Shown here piece by piece: positions 39,755 to 51,274 of a DNA stretch of 64,000 nt (positions are counted from its first letter, which is position 1; each line of letters opens with the position of its first letter). The notes under the pieces were generated by a model that was given only the letters and a program-made list of their open reading frames with translations, did no database searches and was not told the origin of the DNA. Origin of the DNA: Roseibacillus ishigakijimensis (GTDB lineage Bacteria; Verrucomicrobiota; Verrucomicrobiia; Verrucomicrobiales; Akkermansiaceae); assembly GCF_016595415.1 (NCBI RefSeq), contig NZ_JAENIO010000013.1:1-64000 (forward strand), given 5' to 3'. The position numbers were made by a program, and so were the translations under genes.

Positions 39755-39846
39755 CACGAGCCTGCAGAGCCTCAGTGAAAATTTTTTTCGCAAACCTTCC
39801 AAGAAATCCTCCGGCGGGGTGTCGTTCTTCTTGAAAGGATGATGAG

Positions 39847-40416
39847 ATGCCGAACTCTGCCGCCCAGAACGTGATGACCTTGCCCCGACTCCCTCAGGGT
39901 GAGGCCGCGCCTCCCAAGCCCACCATGCGGCAGCTTTTCGAAAGCGAAGAAGTTCCGCTCGTCCGCTTTGCCTACGGGCTCCTCGGTCGGCGCGAAGTGG
40001 CGGAGGAAATCGTGCAGGAGGGCTTTCTCGCACTCTTCGAAAATTTCGACCAGGTCGAGAATCCCCGGGCCTGGCTCTATCGCGCCATCCGCAACAAGGC
40101 GCTCAACGAAATCCGCAAACGCCAGCGGGAAACTCTCGACGACACTCTCCCCGAGGCCCCCGATGACGCCGGGGAATCACCCGACACCGTTCTTGCCCGG
40201 CTGGAAGCCGCCGGCCAGCTCCAGCTCCTCATCGCCGAACTCGCCCAACGCGATGGCGAACTCCTTCGCCTCAAGTATCAGGAAGGCCTCGGCTACAAAG
40301 AAATCGCCGAGCGCACCAAAATGTCGGTCGGCAACGTGGGCTACCGCTTGCATCACCTCCTCAAATCCCTCGCCGACGGACTGCGCAAAGTCGGGGTGGA
40401 AGGGAGGCTGGGATGA
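39847..40416 (+). CDS. ECF-type RNA polymerase sigma factor
   Basis: The 189-residue protein has sigma region 2 at about 42-98 (YGLLGRREVAEEIVQEGFLALFE, then NPRAWLYRAIRNKALNEIRK) and region 4 at about 139-182 (LLRLKYQEGLGYKEIAERTKMSVGNVGYRLHHLLKSL). Region 3 is absent, as in the extracytoplasmic-function class. The next gene, after 423 bp that include tandem repeats, encodes a membrane protein with an anti-sigma-like N-terminus. It is the likely regulator of this sigma factor. Confidence 0.9.
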   Translation: MPNSAAQNVMTLPRLPQGEAAPPKPTMRQLFESEEVPLVRFAYGLLGRREVAEEIVQEGFLALFENFDQVENPRAWLYRAIRNKALNEIRKRQRETLDDTLPEAPDDAGESPDTVLARLEAAGQLQLLIAELAQRDGELLRLKYQEGLGYKEIAERTKMSVGNVGYRLHHLLKSLADGLRKVGVEGRLG

Positions 40417-40587
40417 GGGCTTTTCGAGAACGACAGGCGGTTTGGTGGGCAAAAACCAACGTCGAAAGACCTAAAAACGAAAGGAGACCTGGTGCGTGGA
40501 TTTTCTCTCGGGTTGGGCAAAAAAAACCGAATGTTCAAAAACTCAAAAATCAAAATCCCGCCTCTATAGCCGTCCCCGCAAAGCCTG

Positions 40588-40834
40588 CGTCAGAAATCCT
40601 GTCCCATCCTATCAATCCTGTCCAAAAACCCCCAAAGCCCCGTCAAAAATTCTGTCTCATTCTGTTCATTCTGTCCTCTCCCCCAAAGCCCCCGTCAAAA
40701 ATCCTGTCTCATCCTGTCAATCCTGTCCCAAAACCCCCAAAGCCCCGTCAAAAATACTGTCTCATTCCGTTCATTCTGTCCGCACCCCCAAAGCCCCCGT
40801 CAATAACCCAACCCCATCCTGTCCTAACCCCTTC
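40588..40834. repeat. hierarchical tandem repeat, alternating 53 and 52 bp units
   Basis: Between the sigma and vWA genes are four units beginning with CGTCA: 40588-40640, 40641-40692, 40693-40745 and 40746-40797, then a partial fifth to about 40834. Units 1 and 3 resemble each other, as do 2 and 4, so the higher period is 105 bp. Each unit contains about three copies of an ATCCTGTC/ATTCTGTC core and ends in CCCCCAAAGCCC. The strand bias is strong (almost no G). The rest of this 423 bp gap, 40417-40587, holds nothing I can identify. Confidence 0.9.
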
Positions 40835-40839
40835 TCACT

Positions 40840-43800
40840 ATGAAAGATAAGCTCGAACCTGTCGGAGACGCCGCGCGCGAAGCCCGCATCGTGGCTGTCA
40901 TTCTCGGCGAAGCCTCCGCCTTCGAACGCGAAGAAGTGGACCGTCTTTGCCACGAACACCCCGAGCTCGCTCTCTTCCGCCGTCGCTTGGAAGCAGTGGA
41001 TGGATTGTTGGGAGACCCCAGAGATCAGCGACCAGAATCCAGTAGCAAAGAGTGGCAGCTGTCCGCGGAGCGGAGGCGGGCCGTTCTGGAGAAGATTGCC
41101 GAACAAGAAACTGTTGCACCCTCACCCCGTCCGCATCGTCGCGTTTTAGCATTGCGACCTTGGCAGCAGGCGGCCCTTTGGCTGGGGCTCTTAGTGGCGG
41201 GAGGGTTGCTCGTGATTCCTCCGATGAAACCTTTGTCTGAATCTGCGGCAGCTGTGGCCCAGCAGGAGAAACGAAGGGAGGAGGGTGCGAAAGCCCCTGC
41301 TCAGAAGGAAGCTGACCCGTCCGGCAAAAAGTATGAGTTGTCTCAGCAGGTCGTGGTGGCCGGGCAGGTCATAGAGCCTGGCGCCAAGGCTCATTCCCAG
41401 GGCATGACCTTATCGGAGGCGATCGAGGCCGGGGGAGGAGTAGCCACTTTCGGCACTCCCAAGCGGGTAAATGTTTATCGCGACGGAAAGAAATACACCC
41501 TCAACCTGCGGAATGAAAAGCACCGCAACGAACGCCTGTATCCCGGGGATACCGTCGAAGTGGATCAGGTCAAAGCATGGGAGTCGAGCGGAGAGGGTCC
41601 TGATGGGGGAGGCCAGAGTTTGGCACAGAATGAGCCGTCTTCTCGGCAACCCGCCGCTCCGTCCTCTGCCATGTCTCGGACGATCGCAGCCAACACTGCG
41701 GAGTCGGAAGCTGTGTCCGTGCCTGAGGAAGAGCAAGAGCTGGCTTACGCCGACTTGGGAACGGTTGATGATTTTGGAGAAGGCTGGGGTGATACGGGAG
41801 AATCTTCGCAATTGCTTTCTCAAATCGATAATTCTAGAGGGCTGCCCATTCCCAGGGAAGAGACCTCGTTTGGATCAAATGGCTACAGGTGGGCGGCGAC
41901 TACAAATAGCGAGGATTTCATCACCCAGCGGTTCGTCGTTCCTCCGAATTTCCTTTCTTCATTTGATGTGGGCTTGGCAGGAAAAAATGAGGACGATCCT
42001 TTTGCTAGCGACGAGGACTTGGGGGGAGCTGGCCTCTCTGCCCGTCGGTCGGTGCAGGATTTGCTCGCTGACTCTGGCATCGAATTCCCGGAAGGAGCCA
42101 GCGCCCGCTTCAACTCTGCCACCGGTGAATTGATCGTGAGGAATTCTGCTGCTAACCTGGCTGACACCGAGGCCTTGACCGAGCAAATCACAGGTGGTCA
42201 GGACAGTCTGGGGTGGGTTGCTGCTGGAGGAGAGAGTTTTGGGGAGATTTCGTCTGATGCGATAGAGAATCTGCAGAGTGAGATTGCAAGGCAAGAGAAG
42301 GTCCTCACAAGTCGAGGAACTGAGGATGGGGGAAATGATTTGAAGCTTAAGAAAAGGCAGCTGGCTCTCTTGCAAGAGGCCCAGGCAGCGGGTTCCAACC
42401 CGGTGGCGGCGAAACTACAGAACATCATTATCCCCGAAATCAATTTTGAGAATACGAGCTTGGAGGATGCCGTGGCCATGCTTTCTCAAAAAGCGAAGGA
42501 ATTGGATCCTGATCCGAAAGTGGGGCGTCGCGGGGTCGAGATTTCCCTCGATGTCGAAGAGGAGAGCTTCTCTGACGAAGGGGAGCATCTTTTATTGGGA
42601 AAAAGGGAGGAGGGAGCAACGATTGATATTTTGCGTTTGCGCAATGTTTCCCTTGGGACGGCTTTAGAATACGTCGCGGGTAAAACAGGGAAAAGATATG
42701 TTGTTGATGAAGGCGGGGTGTCCTTGGCAGAACTGGGAGCTTATGCCTCGTCGGATTTGGTGACCCGTATTTGGAGGATGAGTGCGGAGGAATACCGCGA
42801 ACTCATAGAGTCCGCTCAAGTGGATGAGAACGATCCCTTCGCAGAGGGAGATGAGGAGGCGGCGGAGATCCCATCCGAAAAAGAGGCTCTGGAGGCCAGT
42901 GGCGTGGAATTTGCGGAAGGCAGCGAGGTGCTCTATCAGCCGGAGAGCGGGGCTTTCATCGTCAAGAATACGATGGAGAATCTCGAGGTAGTGGATGCCA
43001 TCGTGGAATCTCTGGCCCGTCGGGTGGAGGCGCGCAGCGAGGCGGAGACCTTGAGTGAAAAAGACACCGCGACTCAGGCGGACTCGACATTTTCGCTGCA
43101 TATCAGCGATGTCAGTTTCAAGCTCGCGCAAGCCGCGCTGGCCAAGGGAGAGTGGCCGGAGACGGTGCGGGTGGAGGAATTTGTGAACGCCTTCTCCTAC
43201 GGGGAACGTCGTCTTTTGCCTGGAGAGCGAGTGGGCGTGGCCTTGGAGCAGGTGGCCCATCCTTTTCTCGCCCAACGGAATCTTCTGCGGGTTTCTTTGC
43301 AAACAGCGGCCAGCGGTCGCGGGGCGGACGTGCCCTTGCGCCTGACGGTGGTGCTGGACAAGTCCGGTTCCATGGAGCGCGTCGACCGCGCCCGGGCCAT
43401 TGAGGAGGCTTTCCGCGTCCTTACCGAGCAATTGCGTCCCGGCGACAAGGTCACTCTTGTGGGCTTTTCCCGCACCCCGCGCCTGCTGGCCGATCAGGTC
43501 GATGGCAGCGAGGGGGATCGGCTCTTGCGGATTCTGCGCGAGACCCCCAGCGAGGGGGGGACCAATGTGGAGGAAGCTCTCAAGCTGGCCCGGGCCAAGG
43601 CCTTGGAGCACTTTTCCCCCGAGGCTCAGAACCGGGTCATTCTGCTCACCGACGGTCTTGCCAATCTGGGCACCGAGGTGCCTGCCCAACTGATGGCGCA
43701 GGTGGAGTCCCTGCGCGAGGAAGGGGTGGCCTTTGACGCCTGTGGGGTGGGGACCGAGGGCTTGAATGACGAGATTTTGGAGGCGCTCACCCGCAAGGGC

Positions 43801-44373
43801 GATGGGCGCTACTATCTCCTGGGGAGCACGGCGGAGAGTGGCGCGGAATTCGCCCGACAGGTGGCGGGTGCCCTTCGTCCCGCTGCCAGCAACGTGAAGG
43901 TGCAGGTGCTCTGGAATCCGGAGCGGGTGGGCAAGTGGCGGCTCTATGGCTTCGATAATCATGAGCTGAAAAAGGAGGACTTTCGCAACGATGCGGTCGA
44001 TGCCGCCGAGCTGGCTGCCGAGGAAGAGGGCGTGGCTCTCTATCATGCCGAGGTGAAGCCCGCCGGGGAGGGCCCGCTGGGCGTGGTGCGGGTGCGCTTT
44101 CGCGATGTCGCCCGCGATGAGATGGTGGAGCGGGAGTGGGAGATTCCCTACGAAGGGGAGGCGCCTTCCCTGCTGACCGCTGATCCGAAAGTGCGTTTGG
44201 CCGCCGTGGCCGGGCTTTTTGCCGAAAAACTGGCCTCCAGTCCGGTGGGCGAGCGCGTGGAGTGGGCCGACCTTCTCGCCGAAGTGCGGCTCTTGCAGAA
44301 GATCTTTCCCCAGCAATCCCGGCTGACCGACTTGGAAGCCATGATCGAAAATGCCCGCAAGATTGCTCCCTAA
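40840..44373 (+). CDS. membrane vWA protein with anti-sigma-like, SLBB-like and STN-like regions (YfbK type)
   Basis: Multi-domain protein of 1177 residues. Residues 1-55 resemble anti-sigma N-termini seen next to ECF genes (AREARIVAVILGEASAFEREEVDRL). A single membrane helix is at about 107-129. A beta-grasp SLBB-like domain follows at about 164-245 (VVVAGQVIEPGAKAHSQGMTL). A repeated ASGVEF/DSGIEF...NLxxxEAL motif occurs at about 403-450 and 681-735. A secretin/TonB N-terminal-like (STN) region spans about 528-640. The C-terminus is YfbK-like: an N-terminal domain from about 747, a vWA domain with intact MIDAS D840-x-S842-x-S844, and a DUF3520-like end. The giant envelope gene is 52 bp downstream. 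Confidence 0.8.
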   Translation: MKDKLEPVGDAAREARIVAVILGEASAFEREEVDRLCHEHPELALFRRRLEAVDGLLGDPRDQRPESSSKEWQLSAERRRAVLEKIAEQETVAPSPRPHRRVLALRPWQQAALWLGLLVAGGLLVIPPMKPLSESAAAVAQQEKRREEGAKAPAQKEADPSGKKYELSQQVVVAGQVIEPGAKAHSQGMTLSEAIEAGGGVATFGTPKRVNVYRDGKKYTLNLRNEKHRNERLYPGDTVEVDQVKAWESSGEGPDGGGQSLAQNEPSSRQPAAPSSAMSRTIAANTAESEAVSVPEEEQELAYADLGTVDDFGEGWGDTGESSQLLSQIDNSRGLPIPREETSFGSNGYRWAATTNSEDFITQRFVVPPNFLSSFDVGLAGKNEDDPFASDEDLGGAGLSARRSVQDLLADSGIEFPEGASARFNSATGELIVRNSAANLADTEALTEQITGGQDSLGWVAAGGESFGEISSDAIENLQSEIARQEKVLTSRGTEDGGNDLKLKKRQLALLQEAQAAGSNPVAAKLQNIIIPEINFENTSLEDAVAMLSQKAKELDPDPKVGRRGVEISLDVEEESFSDEGEHLLLGKREEGATIDILRLRNVSLGTALEYVAGKTGKRYVVDEGGVSLAELGAYASSDLVTRIWRMSAEEYRELIESAQVDENDPFAEGDEEAAEIPSEKEALEASGVEFAEGSEVLYQPESGAFIVKNTMENLEVVDAIVESLARRVEARSEAETLSEKDTATQADSTFSLHISDVSFKLAQAALAKGEWPETVRVEEFVNAFSYGERRLLPGERVGVALEQVAHPFLAQRNLLRVSLQTAASGRGADVPLRLTVVLDKSGSMERVDRARAIEEAFRVLTEQLRPGDKVTLVGFSRTPRLLADQVDGSEGDRLLRILRETPSEGGTNVEEALKLARAKALEHFSPEAQNRVILLTDGLANLGTEVPAQLMAQVESLREEGVAFDACGVGTEGLNDEILEALTRKGDGRYYLLGSTAESGAEFARQVAGALRPAASNVKVQVLWNPERVGKWRLYGFDNHELKKEDFRNDAVDAAELAAEEEGVALYHAEVKPAGEGPLGVVRVRFRDVARDEMVEREWEIPYEGEAPSLLTADPKVRLAAVAGLFAEKLASSPVGERVEWADLLAEVRLLQKIFPQQSRLTDLEAMIENARKIAP

Positions 44374-44425
44374 AATGGCTCTCTCTCTGTCTCGCTTCCT
44401 GAATCTGGATTTTTTTAACTTCATC

Positions 44426-47400
44426 ATGAAAACCTTTCTTTGTTCTGCCTTTCTCTTGCTGCTGACTCTTTTTCCCTTCCTAGGGGCTGAAGAGGCCTCG
44501 GTGACCATCGATGTGAAAGAGAAGGAGCCCGTGCCGCTCTACTACTCGGCCCATGTCAGCCAAACGGCGGAAGCCCACCGGGAACTCGTCAGCCACACCG
44601 CCGAGCTGACGGTGAAGGTGATTCAGGGCAAGCCGGAGACCTTTTCCTTTGCCCTGCAGGGTGGGGGACGGGTGCGGGAGGTGGTTGCGCTCTCTGAGGA
44701 CGAGGACGAAGGCGGGGAGAGTCCTTTGCAAAGCTGGTCCACCCGTCGGGGGCTGGACGGGGCTTATCTCGAACTCGCCGTGCGGGAGGGGCAGGAGTCC
44801 TATCGCTTTCAAATTCAAGTCGAGCAGGAACTGACCGAACTGCCTGCCGAAATCCGCTTGTGGAATCTGGGTTCCGGGGAGGCGGTGGGCTTCCAGTCCG
44901 AAATCACGGTCACGATCGCCGAGGGGTTGGTGGGGCATTTTGAAAAGCTGCTCGAGGTGAGCCCCAAACGGCAGGAGCGCGAGCAGAGTGGTTGGCAAAA
45001 TCTCTTGGGAGCGGGGCCGGTCTCGCGTGAGTTGATGACGGCCACGGGGGGCGAGATCTTGCTCGCGGTGGCGGTGGATGGTGCGCCCGGGGAGCGGGTT
45101 GCCCTGCGCTCGGCCTCTCTGCGGGGGACGGTGACGGAGGAGGGGGGACGGGCGCGTTTCCAGCTGCGGGGCCAGGTGGTCGCCTCGCAGGATGGGGTCG
45201 AGCTCCCGTTGCTGAAGGGCTCGGCAGCGGTGGGCGAATTGCCCGAGGTCGCCGGGCTGCGTTTTTTTCTGCGCGGGGACACCTACTTTGTCGAAGTGGC
45301 CCAGGCGGGGAGTTATCCGCTGACGCTCACTTTTCTGGCTCCTCTCTTGTCGCAGGAGGCGGGTTGGGGAATGGACTTCACCATTCCGGCGGCCACCCTG
45401 CTGCCGGTTGAGCTACGAGGGCTCTCGGAGGTGACCTTTCCCGCCGGGCAAACCTTGCTTCCCCAGGCGGAAGGAGAAAAGTGGTTGGCCTACCTTCCTG
45501 CCGGGGGACGCTTTCAACTGGCTTGGCAAAAGGCTTTGCCCGCGTCGGAAGGGGCCCTCCTCTTTTCGAGTCAAGCGGAGGTCGATGTGGAAGTGGGGGC
45601 GGGTCTGTTGCGCCAAGAGAGCGACTTTTCCTTCCGCATTCTGCAGGGGGAGATGAGCAGCCTGCAGCTGGAGCTCTCCGGGCCGGGCGAAGTGCTCGCA
45701 GTCACGGGACCAGACTTGCTTTCATGGGAGCGGAACGAGGAGGGGCTTGTGGTGGCTCTGCGTGAGGCCCGCACGGGCTCGGTCTCGCTGCAGGTCACCA
45801 GCCAGTTGGCCCTGGGGGCTTTTCCGGTGGAGGCTTCTCCCCTGCAGCTCACCCCCGGTGCGGCGGTGAGCCATTCCGGGCACCTCCGGGTGCGCGATGG
45901 GGGAGCGGTGCATCTCCAGGTCACTCCCGAGCGGGGCCTGATGCAGCTTCCCCCCGAGGCTTTTCCCGGCGCGAGCCGGGCCGCCCGCCAACAGTTCGTC
46001 TACCGCTTTCCCTCCGCCGACTACGCTCTCTCCCTGCAGGCGAGCCAAATCGTGCCCGAGGTCATGGTCAACGAGACCGTGCTCTATCAGCTCGGGGAAA
46101 GCGGGCGGGCTCTCAGTGCGGAGGTCGAGCTGGATATCCGCGAGTCCACCCTGCGCGAGTGGACCCTGGAACTTCCCGCAGCCCATGCGGTGGTCTCTGT
46201 CAGCGGGGCGGCGGTGGCCGACTACGTGGTGAGTGGTGGCGAGGAAAACGAGCGGCGCTCGCTGCGCATACTTTTCGCGGAAGAAGTGGCCGGGCGCCAA
46301 CTCCTGCGGGTGCAGTTGGAGAATAACGAGTTACTGCCGGAGGGGGACTGGGTCCTGCCCAAGTTGGGCTACCCGGGAGCCCAGGCGGTGCGGGGGGACC
46401 TGGGCATCGCCGCCGAACCGGGGGTGCGGGTGTCGCTGGGAGAAGCCGTCAAGTTGGCCGAAAAGCCCCTCTCTTATTTCCCCAAACGACCGGCGGGGCT
46501 GCAGCTGGCCTTCCGGCAGCGGGAGCGCGACTGGTCGGCGACCTTGCAGGTGGAGCGCCTGCCCGGCAGTGTGGAGGCCGATGTCTTTCATCTCTATTCT
46601 CTCAAGGATGGCACCGCCTACGGCAGCGTGGTGGTGAACTACTTTGTGACGGGGAGTCCCGTCGATGAGTGGCGTCTGCGCGTGCCCGCCGAGGTGGGTA
46701 ATGTGGCCATCGATGGCCAGCAGGTGCGCACCTGGCGGCGGGAGGGCGAGGAGGTCATTGTGACCCTGCAACAGCCCGTGATGGGACTGTTCACTCTCTT
46801 GCTCACCTGCGAGGAAAAAGTAGGAGCGCAAGGGGGCTCCCTGCGGCCCGGGCGGGTGCAGCCGCTGGGGGTGCGCGACGAGCGCGGCTATGTGCAGGTG
46901 GTCAGCCCGGTGCAGGTGCAGTGCGAGGTCGCGACCGCCTCCGGGGGGCTGCTGAAGCTCGATGTCCTCGAGCTTCCGGCCGAGTTCCGTCTGTCCAGCT
47001 CCGCTCCCTCGCTGGCCGTTTATCAATACACCGCTCGTCCCTTTGAGTTGGCTCTGGCTATCGATTGGTATGAACCGGGCGAGACCGTGGCGCAGGTGGT
47101 GGAGTTCGCGGAAGCGAGCAGCCGGGTCTCGCGCGATGGAGAAGTGGTCACCGATATGAACTACAGTTTGAGTAGCCGGGGGAGCCGGATTCTGCGCGTG
47201 ACCTTGCCCGCCGGGGTGAGTTTGTGGGAAACTCGCGTGGCCGGCGAGGCTGTCAATGCCCGGGTCGATGAGGGCAGCACCCTCATTCCCTTGCCGCCGG
47301 GCACCGATGCCAATGAGCGGGTGGCGGTTTCGCTGCGCTACGGTCAAGCCGCCCAGTCTTCCCGCGCCCTTGATCTCGCCCTGCCGACCCTGGCCGCTCC

Positions 47401-50400
47401 GGTTCTGCAAACCGCTTGGGACATCGCCGGGGATGAGCGCCGCGAGCTGCGCCTGCGGGCCGGGTCCGCTCTGGCAGAGGGTGAACGCGGCTTTGTCTGG
47501 CTGGTGGAGCGCGGGCTTTTCCCGACTCTGCTTTTGCTGGCCTTGCTGGCAGCGGTCGCGGTTTTGGCCCGTCCCGCCCGCTGGGTGGCCTTTGGCTTGC
47601 TCATGGCCGCCTTCCTCGCCCTGGCTTACTTGCTGACGCTTTCCTTTGCGGAGCCCGGGTCGGGTTCTTCCCAAGTCTCAATCAGCGTGCCGGTTCTCGC
47701 CCCCGGAGAAGAGGTGGTGGCGCGTCTTGTCCACGCCGAGAAGGGTCGCTTCGGGTGGGACGTCTGGAGCCTGGCGCTCATGGGCGGGGGTGTCCTGCTG
47801 ACTCTTCTGGCCTCGCTGCGAGGCTGGGGAATGGGCATTCGCTTGTCCGCTTTTCTCGCCGCCGGGGCCGGGGCTCTCTGGCTGCCAGGCGGGGCTTTCT
47901 GGTTCTTCGTTCTCTTGGGGGGCGCGATGGGGCTGATTTTGCTGAGCCTCTTGGGGGGAAAAAGGTCCTCCCCGCGAACCCGGGGGAAGGGCTTGCGTCC
48001 TTCCGCCGGTCTGGCCGGGCTCATGCTGGGCGTGACTCTCGCGGGCGCTCCGCGCGGTGAAGGGGCGGAAATCCCGGCTGCGGAGTCCTTGCGGCAGGTG
48101 GCAGAGATGAGCGGAGAACGCTTCGCGGCGGAAGGCCAGCTGACCCTCCGGGGGGAGGTGGGTGACCGCTTCCGGTTGCTGGGTCCGGCCGCGACCTTGC
48201 GGGGATTCTCGGGGGAAGGGCTTCTTCTCTCTTCCGATGAAAGCGGCTTTTGGCTCACGCTCACTGCTGGGCCTGACAAGGAGTCCCCACCGGAGGCAAA
48301 GGCCGGGGACGCGAGGGAGGAGGGCGCCGGGCGCGATCCCGGATGGCGCGAGGCGACTTTTTCCTACCAGATGCCAGCCGAGCCTTCCTCCCTGACCCTC
48401 CCCACTCCGGCTGCGGCGGTCAGTCGACTCGATCTCGCTCTCCCCAAGGCCGGTTGGGAAGTGGTCTCCGATTCCGCCCTGGTGGTGGAGGAAGGCGCGG
48501 AGGACGGGCAGCCGGTAGTGCGCCTTCTTTTGCTCCCTCAGGCCGAGACGACTCTCTCCCTGCGTCCCCGCGAGCGTGATCCCCTGCGTGAGGAGACCGC
48601 GTTCTTCGTGGAGGTGGCCAATGCTTACCTCCCCGGTCCGGGGCTTTTGGAAGGGCGCCATCACGCGACTCTGCGCCCCGCGCAAGGGGTCGTTCGGCAG
48701 GTGCGCCTGCTCGTCCCGGAAGGGCTCACCGTGAGCCGGGTGGGCGAGGGACCGGTGGCTGGCTGGCGCTTCGATGTCGCCAGCCGCGAGCTGGTGGTCG
48801 ACCTCGCTACTCCGCAAGCGGAGGATTTTTCCCTCCTCGTCGTCACCCAGCGCAGTCTCGGGGCCCTGCCCTTGGAGCTCGCCCTCGCTCCTCTGCGAGT
48901 GAAAGGAGCCGAGCGCGAAGTGGGCTCGCTGGGGCTGGCTTTCGGAGGCGAAGCCCAGGCCGGGAAGGTCACCGCCACCGGCTTGCTGGAGATTCACGCC
49001 CGCGACTTTCCCTCCCGTCTTCTGCGGGCCGAGGGGGAGGTCCTGCACCGGGCCTATCGCTACGGGGCCGAGGCGGCCACCCTGCAGCTGGGCATGGTGC
49101 CGGTGGAGCCCGAAATCCGGGTCGAGAGCGAGGAAGTGCTCTCGCTGGGAGCGGAACGCATTTTGCTGAAATCCGACCTGCGGGTGACCATCCTGCGAGC
49201 GGGCATTTTCCGCTTTCGCTTGCCGCTGCCTCCGGGCTTCGAGGTGGAGTCCTTCAGCGGGGAGGCGCTCAGCCACTGGGACGAGAGCGAAGAGAACGGC
49301 GAGCGCGTGGTGATCGCTCATCTCGGCGGGCAGACCCTGGGGGAAAATGCTTTCTCCCTCGTCCTGGCCAAAACGGGAACCTTTGAAGGCGAGGAGACCG
49401 GCGACGACTCTCCCCGGAGCGATCGCTGGACTGTCCCGCGGGTGGTGGTCGCCGAGGCCACTCGCCAAAGCGGGCAACTGATTGTCCGGGCCGAGCAAGG
49501 ACTGCGCCTGCGCACCCTGGAGCGCAAGAATGTCTCCGAACTAGACCCCCGGGCGGCCGGCTTGCGCACGGTGGGCGACTCCGCCTTGGCCTACCGTCTT
49601 TTGCAAAAAGAGTGGGAGCTGACCCTCGGTGTCGAGGAACTGGAACCCTGGGTGACGGGGCAAATTTTGCAAGAAGTGACCCTGCGCGAAGGGCAGACGC
49701 GCCATCTCTTGCTCGCTTCCCTGGAGATCGAGAATGCCGCCATCCGCACCCTACGGGTCGCCTTGCCCGACCTCAGCGAGGAAATGGCCAAGACGCTGCG
49801 GGCTAGTGGAGAGGCGGTGAGCGGGATTTTTCCCGTTCCCGGCGAGGCTGGACTTTGGGAAATCACCTTCCAGCGCCGCGTCCTCGGCTCCCAGGCCGTG
49901 CGCCTGGAGTGGGAGCGCACGGGCGAGCGGACGGGCGGACAGGAGCGGCTCACCAGAGCGGAATTTCCTGCCCTCCGGCAAGCGAACACCACCTTCGCTT
50001 TTCGCGCGGGAAGTCATCTCGAGGTGACCTTCGCGGACCTGCCAGAAGGGTGGTATCGTGTTGATTGGACCGCTCTACCCGGTTCCCTGCGGCGCGCTGG
50101 GGAAGGGGGCAGTCCGGCGGCCGTCCTGCGCGCGGGGCCCGGCCCTCTTACCGTTCAGGTCACCCGGCATGCCATCGCGGAAGCCCTCAAGCTCCGTGTC
50201 TCGCAAGGGCAATTCACTACCGTCGTCTCACCCCTCGGTGATCGCCTCACCGCCGCCCGGCTCCAGGTCGAGGTCGTGCAACGCAGCTCACTGCGCATCG
50301 CTTTTCCGGGCGGAGCCGAGCTCTTTCATGTCTTTGTCAATGGCGAGAGCGTGAACATCGTGCGCGATGGCGGGGGCTACCTCTTCTACGTCGTGCCCGG

Positions 50401-51274
50401 CGCCGGGGAGACTGCCGCCGAGGTGGAATTTGCCTACGCCCAGGCCGGGGAAGTGGCGGAGAGCCTGACCTTTCGTAGCCCGGAGATTTCCGTCCCTCTG
50501 GAGGATATCGTTTGGCGCGTCATCGTGCCGGAGGACTTTGAGCTGGGCTCAATCGCCGGTGATCTCGATTTGCAGGAGGAATCGGCGGCCTCCAAGCGCT
50601 TCGGCAAGGACTCCTATCTGCGTGCTCTCGCCGACCGCTCCACTTTGGCCAAAGAAAAAGCGATCGCCACCTTCGACAAGGCCGACAGCCTCCTGCAGGC
50701 CGGGCAACAGGCCGAGGCCCTTTTGCTCTACCAGAATGTGGCGAACAACTACAGCCTCGACGGAGCCTTCAACGAAGACGCCCGCGTGAAACTCAATCGC
50801 GTGCAGAGTGATCAAATCGTGGTCGGGCTCAATTCGCGGCGCCAGCGCCTCTACCTCGACAACGCCCTCAACGACCCCGCCAGTGCCCGCAACAATGAAC
50901 TGGAAGTGGCCGCTGCCGCCAATGGCATCTTGCAAGGGGAAGTGAACTTCAAGCCCACCGATCTGGAGCAGCTCTTGCTGGGCAACTCCGCCGAGGAGAA
51001 CGACTTTCTACGGCGCATTGCCGACCGCTTGCTCAAGCACCAGAAAACCAGCGAGCCCGCCCCCCAGGCCCTCGCCGTGCCCGTGCCGGCCGAGGGTCAG
51101 GAGTTGATCTTCCGCCGCTCCGTGCGGGTGGCCGGGAGTGAGCCCCTTACCCTGCGCCTCGCCCTTGCCAATGGAAGCGCGAATTCCGGCCGGCCGGAAC
51201 TGGTGGGAGCCTGTCTCCTCCTCCTCGCCCTCGCTGCGGCCTGCGCCTACGCCCTCCGGCCCGCCAAACGCTGA
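44426..51274 (+). CDS. giant envelope protein with internal duplication
   Basis: Product of 2282 residues. An N-terminal signal peptide (MKTFLCSAFLLLLTLFPFLGA) leads into a beta-rich half. A central cluster of about five hydrophobic helices lies at about 1030-1180. Right after it, a second signal-like segment (GLAGLMLGVTLAGAPRGEGA) opens another beta-rich half. The halves share blocks: SLQVTSQLALGAFPVE near 453 with SLLVVTQRSLGALPLE near 1469, and MVNETVLYQLGE near 547 with RVESEEVLSLGAE near 1565. The last 230 residues are helical (TPR-like) with a final membrane helix. No family or enzyme is recognised. Alternative ATG 44375 adds 17 residues. Confidence 0.8.
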   Translation: MKTFLCSAFLLLLTLFPFLGAEEASVTIDVKEKEPVPLYYSAHVSQTAEAHRELVSHTAELTVKVIQGKPETFSFALQGGGRVREVVALSEDEDEGGESPLQSWSTRRGLDGAYLELAVREGQESYRFQIQVEQELTELPAEIRLWNLGSGEAVGFQSEITVTIAEGLVGHFEKLLEVSPKRQEREQSGWQNLLGAGPVSRELMTATGGEILLAVAVDGAPGERVALRSASLRGTVTEEGGRARFQLRGQVVASQDGVELPLLKGSAAVGELPEVAGLRFFLRGDTYFVEVAQAGSYPLTLTFLAPLLSQEAGWGMDFTIPAATLLPVELRGLSEVTFPAGQTLLPQAEGEKWLAYLPAGGRFQLAWQKALPASEGALLFSSQAEVDVEVGAGLLRQESDFSFRILQGEMSSLQLELSGPGEVLAVTGPDLLSWERNEEGLVVALREARTGSVSLQVTSQLALGAFPVEASPLQLTPGAAVSHSGHLRVRDGGAVHLQVTPERGLMQLPPEAFPGASRAARQQFVYRFPSADYALSLQASQIVPEVMVNETVLYQLGESGRALSAEVELDIRESTLREWTLELPAAHAVVSVSGAAVADYVVSGGEENERRSLRILFAEEVAGRQLLRVQLENNELLPEGDWVLPKLGYPGAQAVRGDLGIAAEPGVRVSLGEAVKLAEKPLSYFPKRPAGLQLAFRQRERDWSATLQVERLPGSVEADVFHLYSLKDGTAYGSVVVNYFVTGSPVDEWRLRVPAEVGNVAIDGQQVRTWRREGEEVIVTLQQPVMGLFTLLLTCEEKVGAQGGSLRPGRVQPLGVRDERGYVQVVSPVQVQCEVATASGGLLKLDVLELPAEFRLSSSAPSLAVYQYTARPFELALAIDWYEPGETVAQVVEFAEASSRVSRDGEVVTDMNYSLSSRGSRILRVTLPAGVSLWETRVAGEAVNARVDEGSTLIPLPPGTDANERVAVSLRYGQAAQSSRALDLALPTLAAPVLQTAWDIAGDERRELRLRAGSALAEGERGFVWLVERGLFPTLLLLALLAAVAVLARPARWVAFGLLMAAFLALAYLLTLSFAEPGSGSSQVSISVPVLAPGEEVVARLVHAEKGRFGWDVWSLALMGGGVLLTLLASLRGWGMGIRLSAFLAAGAGALWLPGGAFWFFVLLGGAMGLILLSLLGGKRSSPRTRGKGLRPSAGLAGLMLGVTLAGAPRGEGAEIPAAESLRQVAEMSGERFAAEGQLTLRGEVGDRFRLLGPAATLRGFSGEGLLLSSDESGFWLTLTAGPDKESPPEAKAGDAREEGAGRDPGWREATFSYQMPAEPSSLTLPTPAAAVSRLDLALPKAGWEVVSDSALVVEEGAEDGQPVVRLLLLPQAETTLSLRPRERDPLREETAFFVEVANAYLPGPGLLEGRHHATLRPAQGVVRQVRLLVPEGLTVSRVGEGPVAGWRFDVASRELVVDLATPQAEDFSLLVVTQRSLGALPLELALAPLRVKGAEREVGSLGLAFGGEAQAGKVTATGLLEIHARDFPSRLLRAEGEVLHRAYRYGAEAATLQLGMVPVEPEIRVESEEVLSLGAERILLKSDLRVTILRAGIFRFRLPLPPGFEVESFSGEALSHWDESEENGERVVIAHLGGQTLGENAFSLVLAKTGTFEGEETGDDSPRSDRWTVPRVVVAEATRQSGQLIVRAEQGLRLRTLERKNVSELDPRAAGLRTVGDSALAYRLLQKEWELTLGVEELEPWVTGQILQEVTLREGQTRHLLLASLEIENAAIRTLRVALPDLSEEMAKTLRASGEAVSGIFPVPGEAGLWEITFQRRVLGSQAVRLEWERTGERTGGQERLTRAEFPALRQANTTFAFRAGSHLEVTFADLPEGWYRVDWTALPGSLRRAGEGGSPAAVLRAGPGPLTVQVTRHAIAEALKLRVSQGQFTTVVSPLGDRLTAARLQVEVVQRSSLRIAFPGGAELFHVFVNGESVNIVRDGGGYLFYVVPGAGETAAEVEFAYAQAGEVAESLTFRSPEISVPLEDIVWRVIVPEDFELGSIAGDLDLQEESAASKRFGKDSYLRALADRSTLAKEKAIATFDKADSLLQAGQQAEALLLYQNVANNYSLDGAFNEDARVKLNRVQSDQIVVGLNSRRQRLYLDNALNDPASARNNELEVAAAANGILQGEVNFKPTDLEQLLLGNSAEENDFLRRIADRLLKHQKTSEPAPQALAVPVPAEGQELIFRRSVRVAGSEPLTLRLALANGSANSGRPELVGACLLLLALAAACAYALRPAKR

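Follow-up and report, generated by a model that had tools for sequence, protein, structure and literature searches.

The RpoE-RseA(-RseB) system of E. coli and the SigW-RsiW and SigK-RskA pairs are built around an extracytoplasmic function (ECF) sigma factor, whose gene is followed by that of a single-pass membrane anti-sigma factor, and pairs of the RpoE-RseA type are autoregulated and possess a cytosolic anti-sigma domain composed of three helices (H1-H3), a linker and a fourth helix (H4). The FecI-FecR-FecA cell-surface signalling system unites a sigma factor, a membrane regulator and a large envelope partner, and in the Bat system (BatA/B/D) the gene for a membrane VWA protein neighbours that for a large, beta-rich protein of the periplasm with a transmembrane (TM) segment. 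Here we describe a locus of Roseibacillus ishigakijimensis (Verrucomicrobiota, Akkermansiaceae) that resembles each of these systems in part. It lies in a stretch of 64,000 nucleotides (contig NZ_JAENIO010000013.1, positions 1 to 64,000; hereafter the window) and consists of the genes for an ECF sigma factor (39847..40416, 189 amino acids), a predicted membrane anti-sigma factor with a periplasmic VWA/YfbK domain (40840..44373, 1177 amino acids) and a giant inner-membrane/periplasmic beta-sandwich protein (44426..51274, 2282 amino acids), all on the forward strand. We consider it likely that this trio is an autoregulated ECF envelope-stress module, in which the VWA protein would act as the anti-sigma sensor, the giant protein as its co-transcribed partner, and an alpha-2-macroglobulin (A2M) would be among the targets.

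With the RpoE-RseA-type pairs the module shares the gene order, the probable autoregulation and the helix arrangement of the cytosolic domain. However, this domain has no significant sequence similarity to RseA, the outer part of the protein is of the VWA/YfbK type rather than an RseB-binding region, a third gene for a 2282-residue multi-TM beta-sandwich protein has been added, and the promoter (CYAAG-N17-GTC) is different. The YfbK-type VWA proteins of E. coli exhibit the same Pfam string (vWF_A-VWA-YfbK_C) with an intact metal ion-dependent adhesion site (MIDAS), but in the module this string is fused to a TM helix and a cytosolic domain of the putative sigma-binding type, and is encoded beside an ECF gene. 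The likeness to Bat ends with the MoxR ATPase gene, which the module lacks, and with the ECF sigma factor and anti-sigma domain, which it possesses. The three-gene logic is like that of FecI-FecR-FecA, yet the giant protein has no Pfam match to a TonB-dependent outer-membrane receptor. ECF/anti-sigma systems as such are well known, whereas a duplicated giant protein that shares one promoter with a VWA/YfbK anti-sigma factor in two phyla seems to be undescribed: we found no account of the trio in the literature searched, although the group may yet be listed in a paper behind subscription or in a table of ECF classification.

An earlier note on this DNA had described an ECF sigma factor, a membrane VWA protein and a 2282-residue exported protein encoded on one strand with no transport or enzyme gene inserted among them, and the open reading frames (ORFs), the Pfam matches and the TM and signal-peptide analysis bear this out, with no gene of an annotated type between the three. 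The sigma factor consists of regions 2 and 4 only (Sigma70_r2, PF04542, E 1e-15; Sigma70_r4_2, PF08281, E 2e-11; both above the cut-off), which fits the usual ECF size of about 190 residues, and among the NCBIfam matches listed only the general sigma70-ECF superfamily exceeds the cut-off. It is one of many, as the genome yields 23 sigma region-2 matches. The giant protein has no Pfam or NCBIfam match; its start codon could alternatively be an upstream ATG at 44351, and the closest named relative by this protein is Roseibacillus persicicus (59% identity).

The co-occurrence of the three genes in the same order, proposed in the earlier note as a check, is striking. Among 143 related genomes, 49 encode the giant protein (E<1e-100), and a strong VWA orthologue is present in 46/49 of these and in 0/94 of the remainder (Fisher 3e-34), the three exceptions being fragmented assemblies. 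The order sigma-VWA-giant on one strand is kept in all 38 loci of the relatives with enough flanking sequence. A wider scan of 84,980 species genomes revealed 317 giant-encoding places, and the 79 loci kept from them all belong to Verrucomicrobiota or Planctomycetota (Rhodopirellula, Rubripirellula, Fuerstiella and others), with the Planctomycetota giants about 40-43% identical over most of their length. The trio order is preserved in 63/63 of these loci in which the sigma gene is within reach, in both phyla; the remaining 16 are cut by contig ends, and the two sets of loci overlap in part. An orthologue of the VWA protein is found at every module locus, and in 24 of the 63 the VWA gene starts within the end of the sigma gene, with an overlap of exactly 4 bp. 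Such exact recurrence of order and strand, together with the co-occurrence of VWA and giant genes, indicates that the arrangement is not due to chance. The opposite possibility, that the genes occur independently in relatives, fails for the VWA and giant proteins and applies to the sigma factor, the only member seen apart, which is found without the other two in 4 genomes. In G057 (L219:8048-8599) an orthologous sigma gene with the promoter appears to be an orphan, with neither the VWA/giant pair nor an anti-sigma-like gene seen adjoining. The giant protein is encoded as two ORFs in two relatives, and at one locus (L104/G072) the VWA and giant genes are both split into two frames.

Upstream of the sigma gene we identified an ECF-type promoter (39797..39823, forward strand; TTCCAAG-AAATCCTCCGGCGGGG-TGTC, with CYAAG as the -35 element, a fixed spacing of 17 nt and GTC as the -10 element) by its conservation; its position weight matrix (PWM) score is 31.5. 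The pattern C[CTA]AAG-N17-GTC precedes the sigma gene in 34/39 relatives by rule, and in 38/39 after over-extended starts are corrected and one variant is allowed, as compared to an average of 3/39 and a maximum of 8/39 in shuffled controls with free spacing. A fuller form of the consensus is TTTTCYAAGGATTT...GTGTCT. In the wider set the promoter is present at 58/63 loci (15/19 in Planctomycetota). The spacing stays exactly 17 nt although the spacer sequence diverges. The promoter is absent upstream of the seven other sigma genes of the window genome that were checked, and according to the PWM neither the VWA gene nor the giant gene of the window has such a promoter of its own. Since the layout upstream of the sigma gene is that expected of an ECF promoter, we infer that the sigma factor autoregulates its own operon.

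The cytosolic N-terminus of the VWA protein, which the earlier note took for an anti-sigma domain, is conserved across both phyla over residues 1-85 (DPELEARIVAxVLGEASxFERxELERL...PEL...HGLL...DWKLSxERR). The predicted domain (residues 7-84; 40858..41091), delimited from the two-phylum alignment and the structural model of an orthologue, is characterized by EARIVAxxLGEAS... and by W72-x-L...R around helix 4, and is followed by a single TM helix (residues 111-129, 41170..41226, by hydropathy), so that a single-pass membrane protein is encoded beside the sigma factor. The VWA reading frame of some relatives is in frame with the sigma gene and directly adjoins its stop codon, and reading through this one stop yields a natural chain of sigma factor and N-domain. 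AlphaFold2 (AF2) folded one such chain, that of L083, from a 68-row alignment with a mean predicted local distance difference test (pLDDT) score of 86 and a predicted template modelling (pTM) score of 0.80. The sigma domains of the model match solved ECFs, and the N-domain forms helices 213-223, 229-241 and 243-263, a linker, and helix 275-285, mostly at pLDDT of about 95. This H1-H3, linker, H4 order is that of the class I anti-sigma domain, defined as a three-helix bundle, a flexible linker and a fourth helix (PMC7406223). Moreover, the near-invariant W of the N-domain sits immediately before H4, and a W or Y on the anti-sigma side is a noted contact (PMC7406223). Couplings between the sigma factor and the N-domain, which bear on the class I contacts of helix 4 with sigma2 and of helix 1 with sigma4, reach 5.3, versus about 2.4 in permuted pairings, with phylogeny not removed and the contacts scattered. 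Finally, two genomes (G091 and G104) encode an orthologous sigma factor (E<1e-69) behind the same promoter, next to a protein that starts with the same kind of N-domain and continues into a different outer part (667 and 364 amino acids, no VWA by Pfam in either), a pattern in which the cytosolic domain rather than the VWA domain tracks the sigma factor. Given the conserved order, the frequent 4-bp overlap, the conservation of the N-domain, its confident fold with the sigma factor and the arrangement in G091 and G104, the predicted sigma/anti-sigma link is well supported computationally, and the anti-sigma assignment of the earlier note thereby gains ground.

The outer part of the VWA protein is of the YfbK type, with vWF_A, VWA (MIDAS DKSGS at 840) and YfbK_C in order (43054..44370, Pfam), and the MIDAS motif DxSGS is retained in 107/109 orthologues, the two misses being shortened proteins. 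Between the TM helix and the VWA domain lie two further elements: an SLBB domain (residues 169-241, 41344..41562; SLBB_2 E 8e-9), a lineage-specific insertion unmatched in the other module loci, and a lineage-variable stretch (residues 512-728, 42373..43023) that resembles the N-domains of the Amuc_1098 type IV pilus secretin (NCBIfam E 2e-62, partial and below the curated cut-off). Shorter YfbK-type VWA proteins also occur beside a second ECF sigma factor without the giant protein (L132:5584-8455 in G001, G003:C35:24341-26522, G014:C1:326564-328868, G124:C1:1631732-1634616, G057:C24:79696-82105 and G104:C150:7099-9619). Anti-sigma factors of the VWA/YfbK type may be a general class.

The giant protein comprises a signal peptide, a first half, about 5-6 TM helices (1023-1210), a second half and a C-terminal TM helix. 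Aligned with each other, the two halves prove to be homologues (hhalign probability 100, E 5e-44, 769 columns), i.e. the protein is internally duplicated, and the signal peptide together with the C-terminal TM helix suggests that both halves are periplasmic. AF2 predicts the second half with local confidence (pLDDT 90, pTM 0.52) as a string of beta sandwiches, of which the C-terminal domain (residues 1920-2248, 50183..51169) is a sandwich with a helical insertion, similar to the N-domain of M1 aminopeptidases (VIA-align Z 12-14, root-mean-square deviation (rmsd) about 3 A over about 155 residues). The HExxH zinc catalytic motif is absent from the giant protein, which is thus not an M1 peptidase in spite of the N-domain fold and most likely serves as a scaffold or in binding. 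The Foldseek matches to integrin and ribophorin I/Ost1 have low TM scores and large rmsd, and we read them merely as chains of beta sandwiches. In other Verrucomicrobiales families we observed a different cluster weakly similar to the giant protein (L116-L131, e.g. L118:3689-15995, L120:6138-19230, L121:5428-18167), composed of exported or membrane proteins of about 1200, 1560 and 1400 amino acids ('ELWVPTKxLxxVL...'), with no sigma gene seen beside it.

In related genomes the promoter pattern is also found closely upstream of genes for exported proteins, among them A2M, DUF4139 and VIT-VWA proteins. The A2M proteins concerned are about 2000 amino acids long and contain bMG10, A2M and MG2 domains. 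The A2M test was chosen after this lead from the motif, but the genes whose upstream regions were scored by PWM had been selected without it; a score of 11.4 exceeds that of 99.9% of shuffled regions. With class 1 defined by an N-terminus like that of the A2M of the window genome, the sigma-bearing genomes contain the motif at 11/14 class-1 A2M genes (10 by rule and one with a corrected start) versus 0/19 genes of other classes (Fisher 1e-5, computed with 10/14); one third-class gene with the motif (L344) was left out of both counts. The A2M gene of the window genome itself (C104, 1987 amino acids) has the promoter CCAATAAAACTGTCTTTCTCGTGTC (score 16.0), whereas that of a congener devoid of the module (G003) scores 3.7 and lacks the motif. 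Among genomes without the module, 1/5 class-1 A2M genes carry it (p 0.04-0.11, with few genes). Thus in many species the module probably also switches on A2M, a protease-trapping protein. The strict pattern occurs at 9 sites in the window genome, versus 2 in the reversed control, and only two of the 9 are promoter-like: that of the sigma operon and that of an exported 186-residue protein on contig C120 (L223:14847-15422), whose copy scores 24.4 and which we predict to be a second target besides A2M. The same motif stands in front of exported proteins of about 2100 amino acids and of an unknown family at two other loci (L214:1577-7909 and L215:815-7234, the latter with no Pfam match).

We propose the following scenario. 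The first ~85 residues of the VWA protein would retain the sigma factor on the cytoplasmic side, a single TM helix would cross the membrane, and the periplasmic MIDAS-bearing VWA/YfbK domain would serve as the sensor. The giant protein, a co-transcribed product with an inner-membrane anchor, would most probably be what the VWA domain reads in the periplasm, or else the presenter of something that it reads. Envelope damage or a ligand might alter the VWA-giant interaction and free the sigma factor. Using the CYAAG-N17-GTC promoter, the sigma factor would then transcribe the operon that encodes it, joined in many genomes by the genes for periplasmic A2M and other exported proteins. Several observations speak against this scenario. 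In the window, the sigma gene is parted from the VWA gene by a gap of 424 bp filled with repeats. The anti-sigma domain has no Pfam match and no significant sequence match to solved chains in the PDB, and its sequence similarity to RseA, the only known class I member compared directly by hhalign, is not significant (score 12.5, versus a mean of 10.3 and a maximum of 21.8 for shuffles). In the structure modelling, of the kind suggested in the earlier note, the joint fold is confident and of class I topology, but it was obtained for a fused chain, and its sigma2/sigma4 placement departs from that in the solved SigW/RsiW and RpoE/RseA complexes (rmsd 11-12 A). The list of structural matches was filled by sigma factors, hence the absence of solved anti-sigma chains from it says nothing either way. 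Finally, three genomes without the module (G036, G040 and G075) retain the motif at an A2M gene, where a related or other sigma factor may read it or the module may have been lost recently.

The giant protein could instead be an output of the system, a scaffold or repair protein driven by the sigma factor, with the VWA domain of a genuine anti-sigma factor sensing something else. We regard this as a possible, though less probable, reading: the giant gene lies downstream in the same operon, and other exported proteins such as A2M share the promoter. On the other hand, the VWA and giant proteins are never found apart outside fragmented assemblies, whereas the sigma factor and A2M-type targets do occur without them, and a mere target would be expected to move or vanish more easily. 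The strict co-occurrence therefore favours the giant protein as a partner of the sensor. It is rather unlikely that the VWA protein begins with something other than an anti-sigma domain, with the sigma factor controlled by transcription alone, as is known for some ECFs (PMC8103513), and with the VWA and giant proteins forming a structural or chaperone complex like the Bat proteins. The missing sequence match to known anti-sigma domains would agree with this, but the N-domain is well conserved in two phyla, precedes a single TM helix, folds confidently with the sigma factor in the class I helix topology, and is kept beside the orthologous sigma factor where the VWA domain is absent. Mere vertical inheritance of functionally unrelated neighbours we hold to be very improbable: most loci do come from related orders, but the trio is still intact where identity between phyla has dropped to about 40%, the genes flanking it in the window find no match in other module loci, and the promoter spacing is exact in spite of the divergent spacer.

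The envelope-stress module that we prefer would be of interest because Planctomycetota and Verrucomicrobiota contain dozens of ECF sigma factors (37 in R. baltica; PMC2754498), few of which have been assigned a partner. It offers a concrete candidate, present across both phyla, for a counterpart of the sigma-E/Rse envelope stress response, with VWA/YfbK as a new kind of sensor for anti-sigma factors and a readable promoter motif, and the predicted A2M target makes the regulon directly testable. It is tempting, if tentative, to go further and imagine a surveillance specific to the Planctomycetes-Verrucomicrobia-Chlamydiae group, in which the VWA anti-sigma factor reads the giant protein as a ribophorin/M1-like inner-membrane scaffold through its MIDAS, and a disturbance sets the sigma factor to produce A2M protease traps; we think it somewhat less likely than its opposite. 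If true, it would make VWA/YfbK proteins a general class of ECF sensors. A role of the locus in anti-phage defence was rejected, as the PADLOC models gave no match. The repeats between the sigma and VWA genes, found by TRF, form a tandem array with a period of 53 bp (40573..40803, forward strand) that is rich in AATCCTGTC, contained in each unit, and lies outside the conserved module; the genome has 8 similar sites at <=2 mismatches, with a few away from the array.
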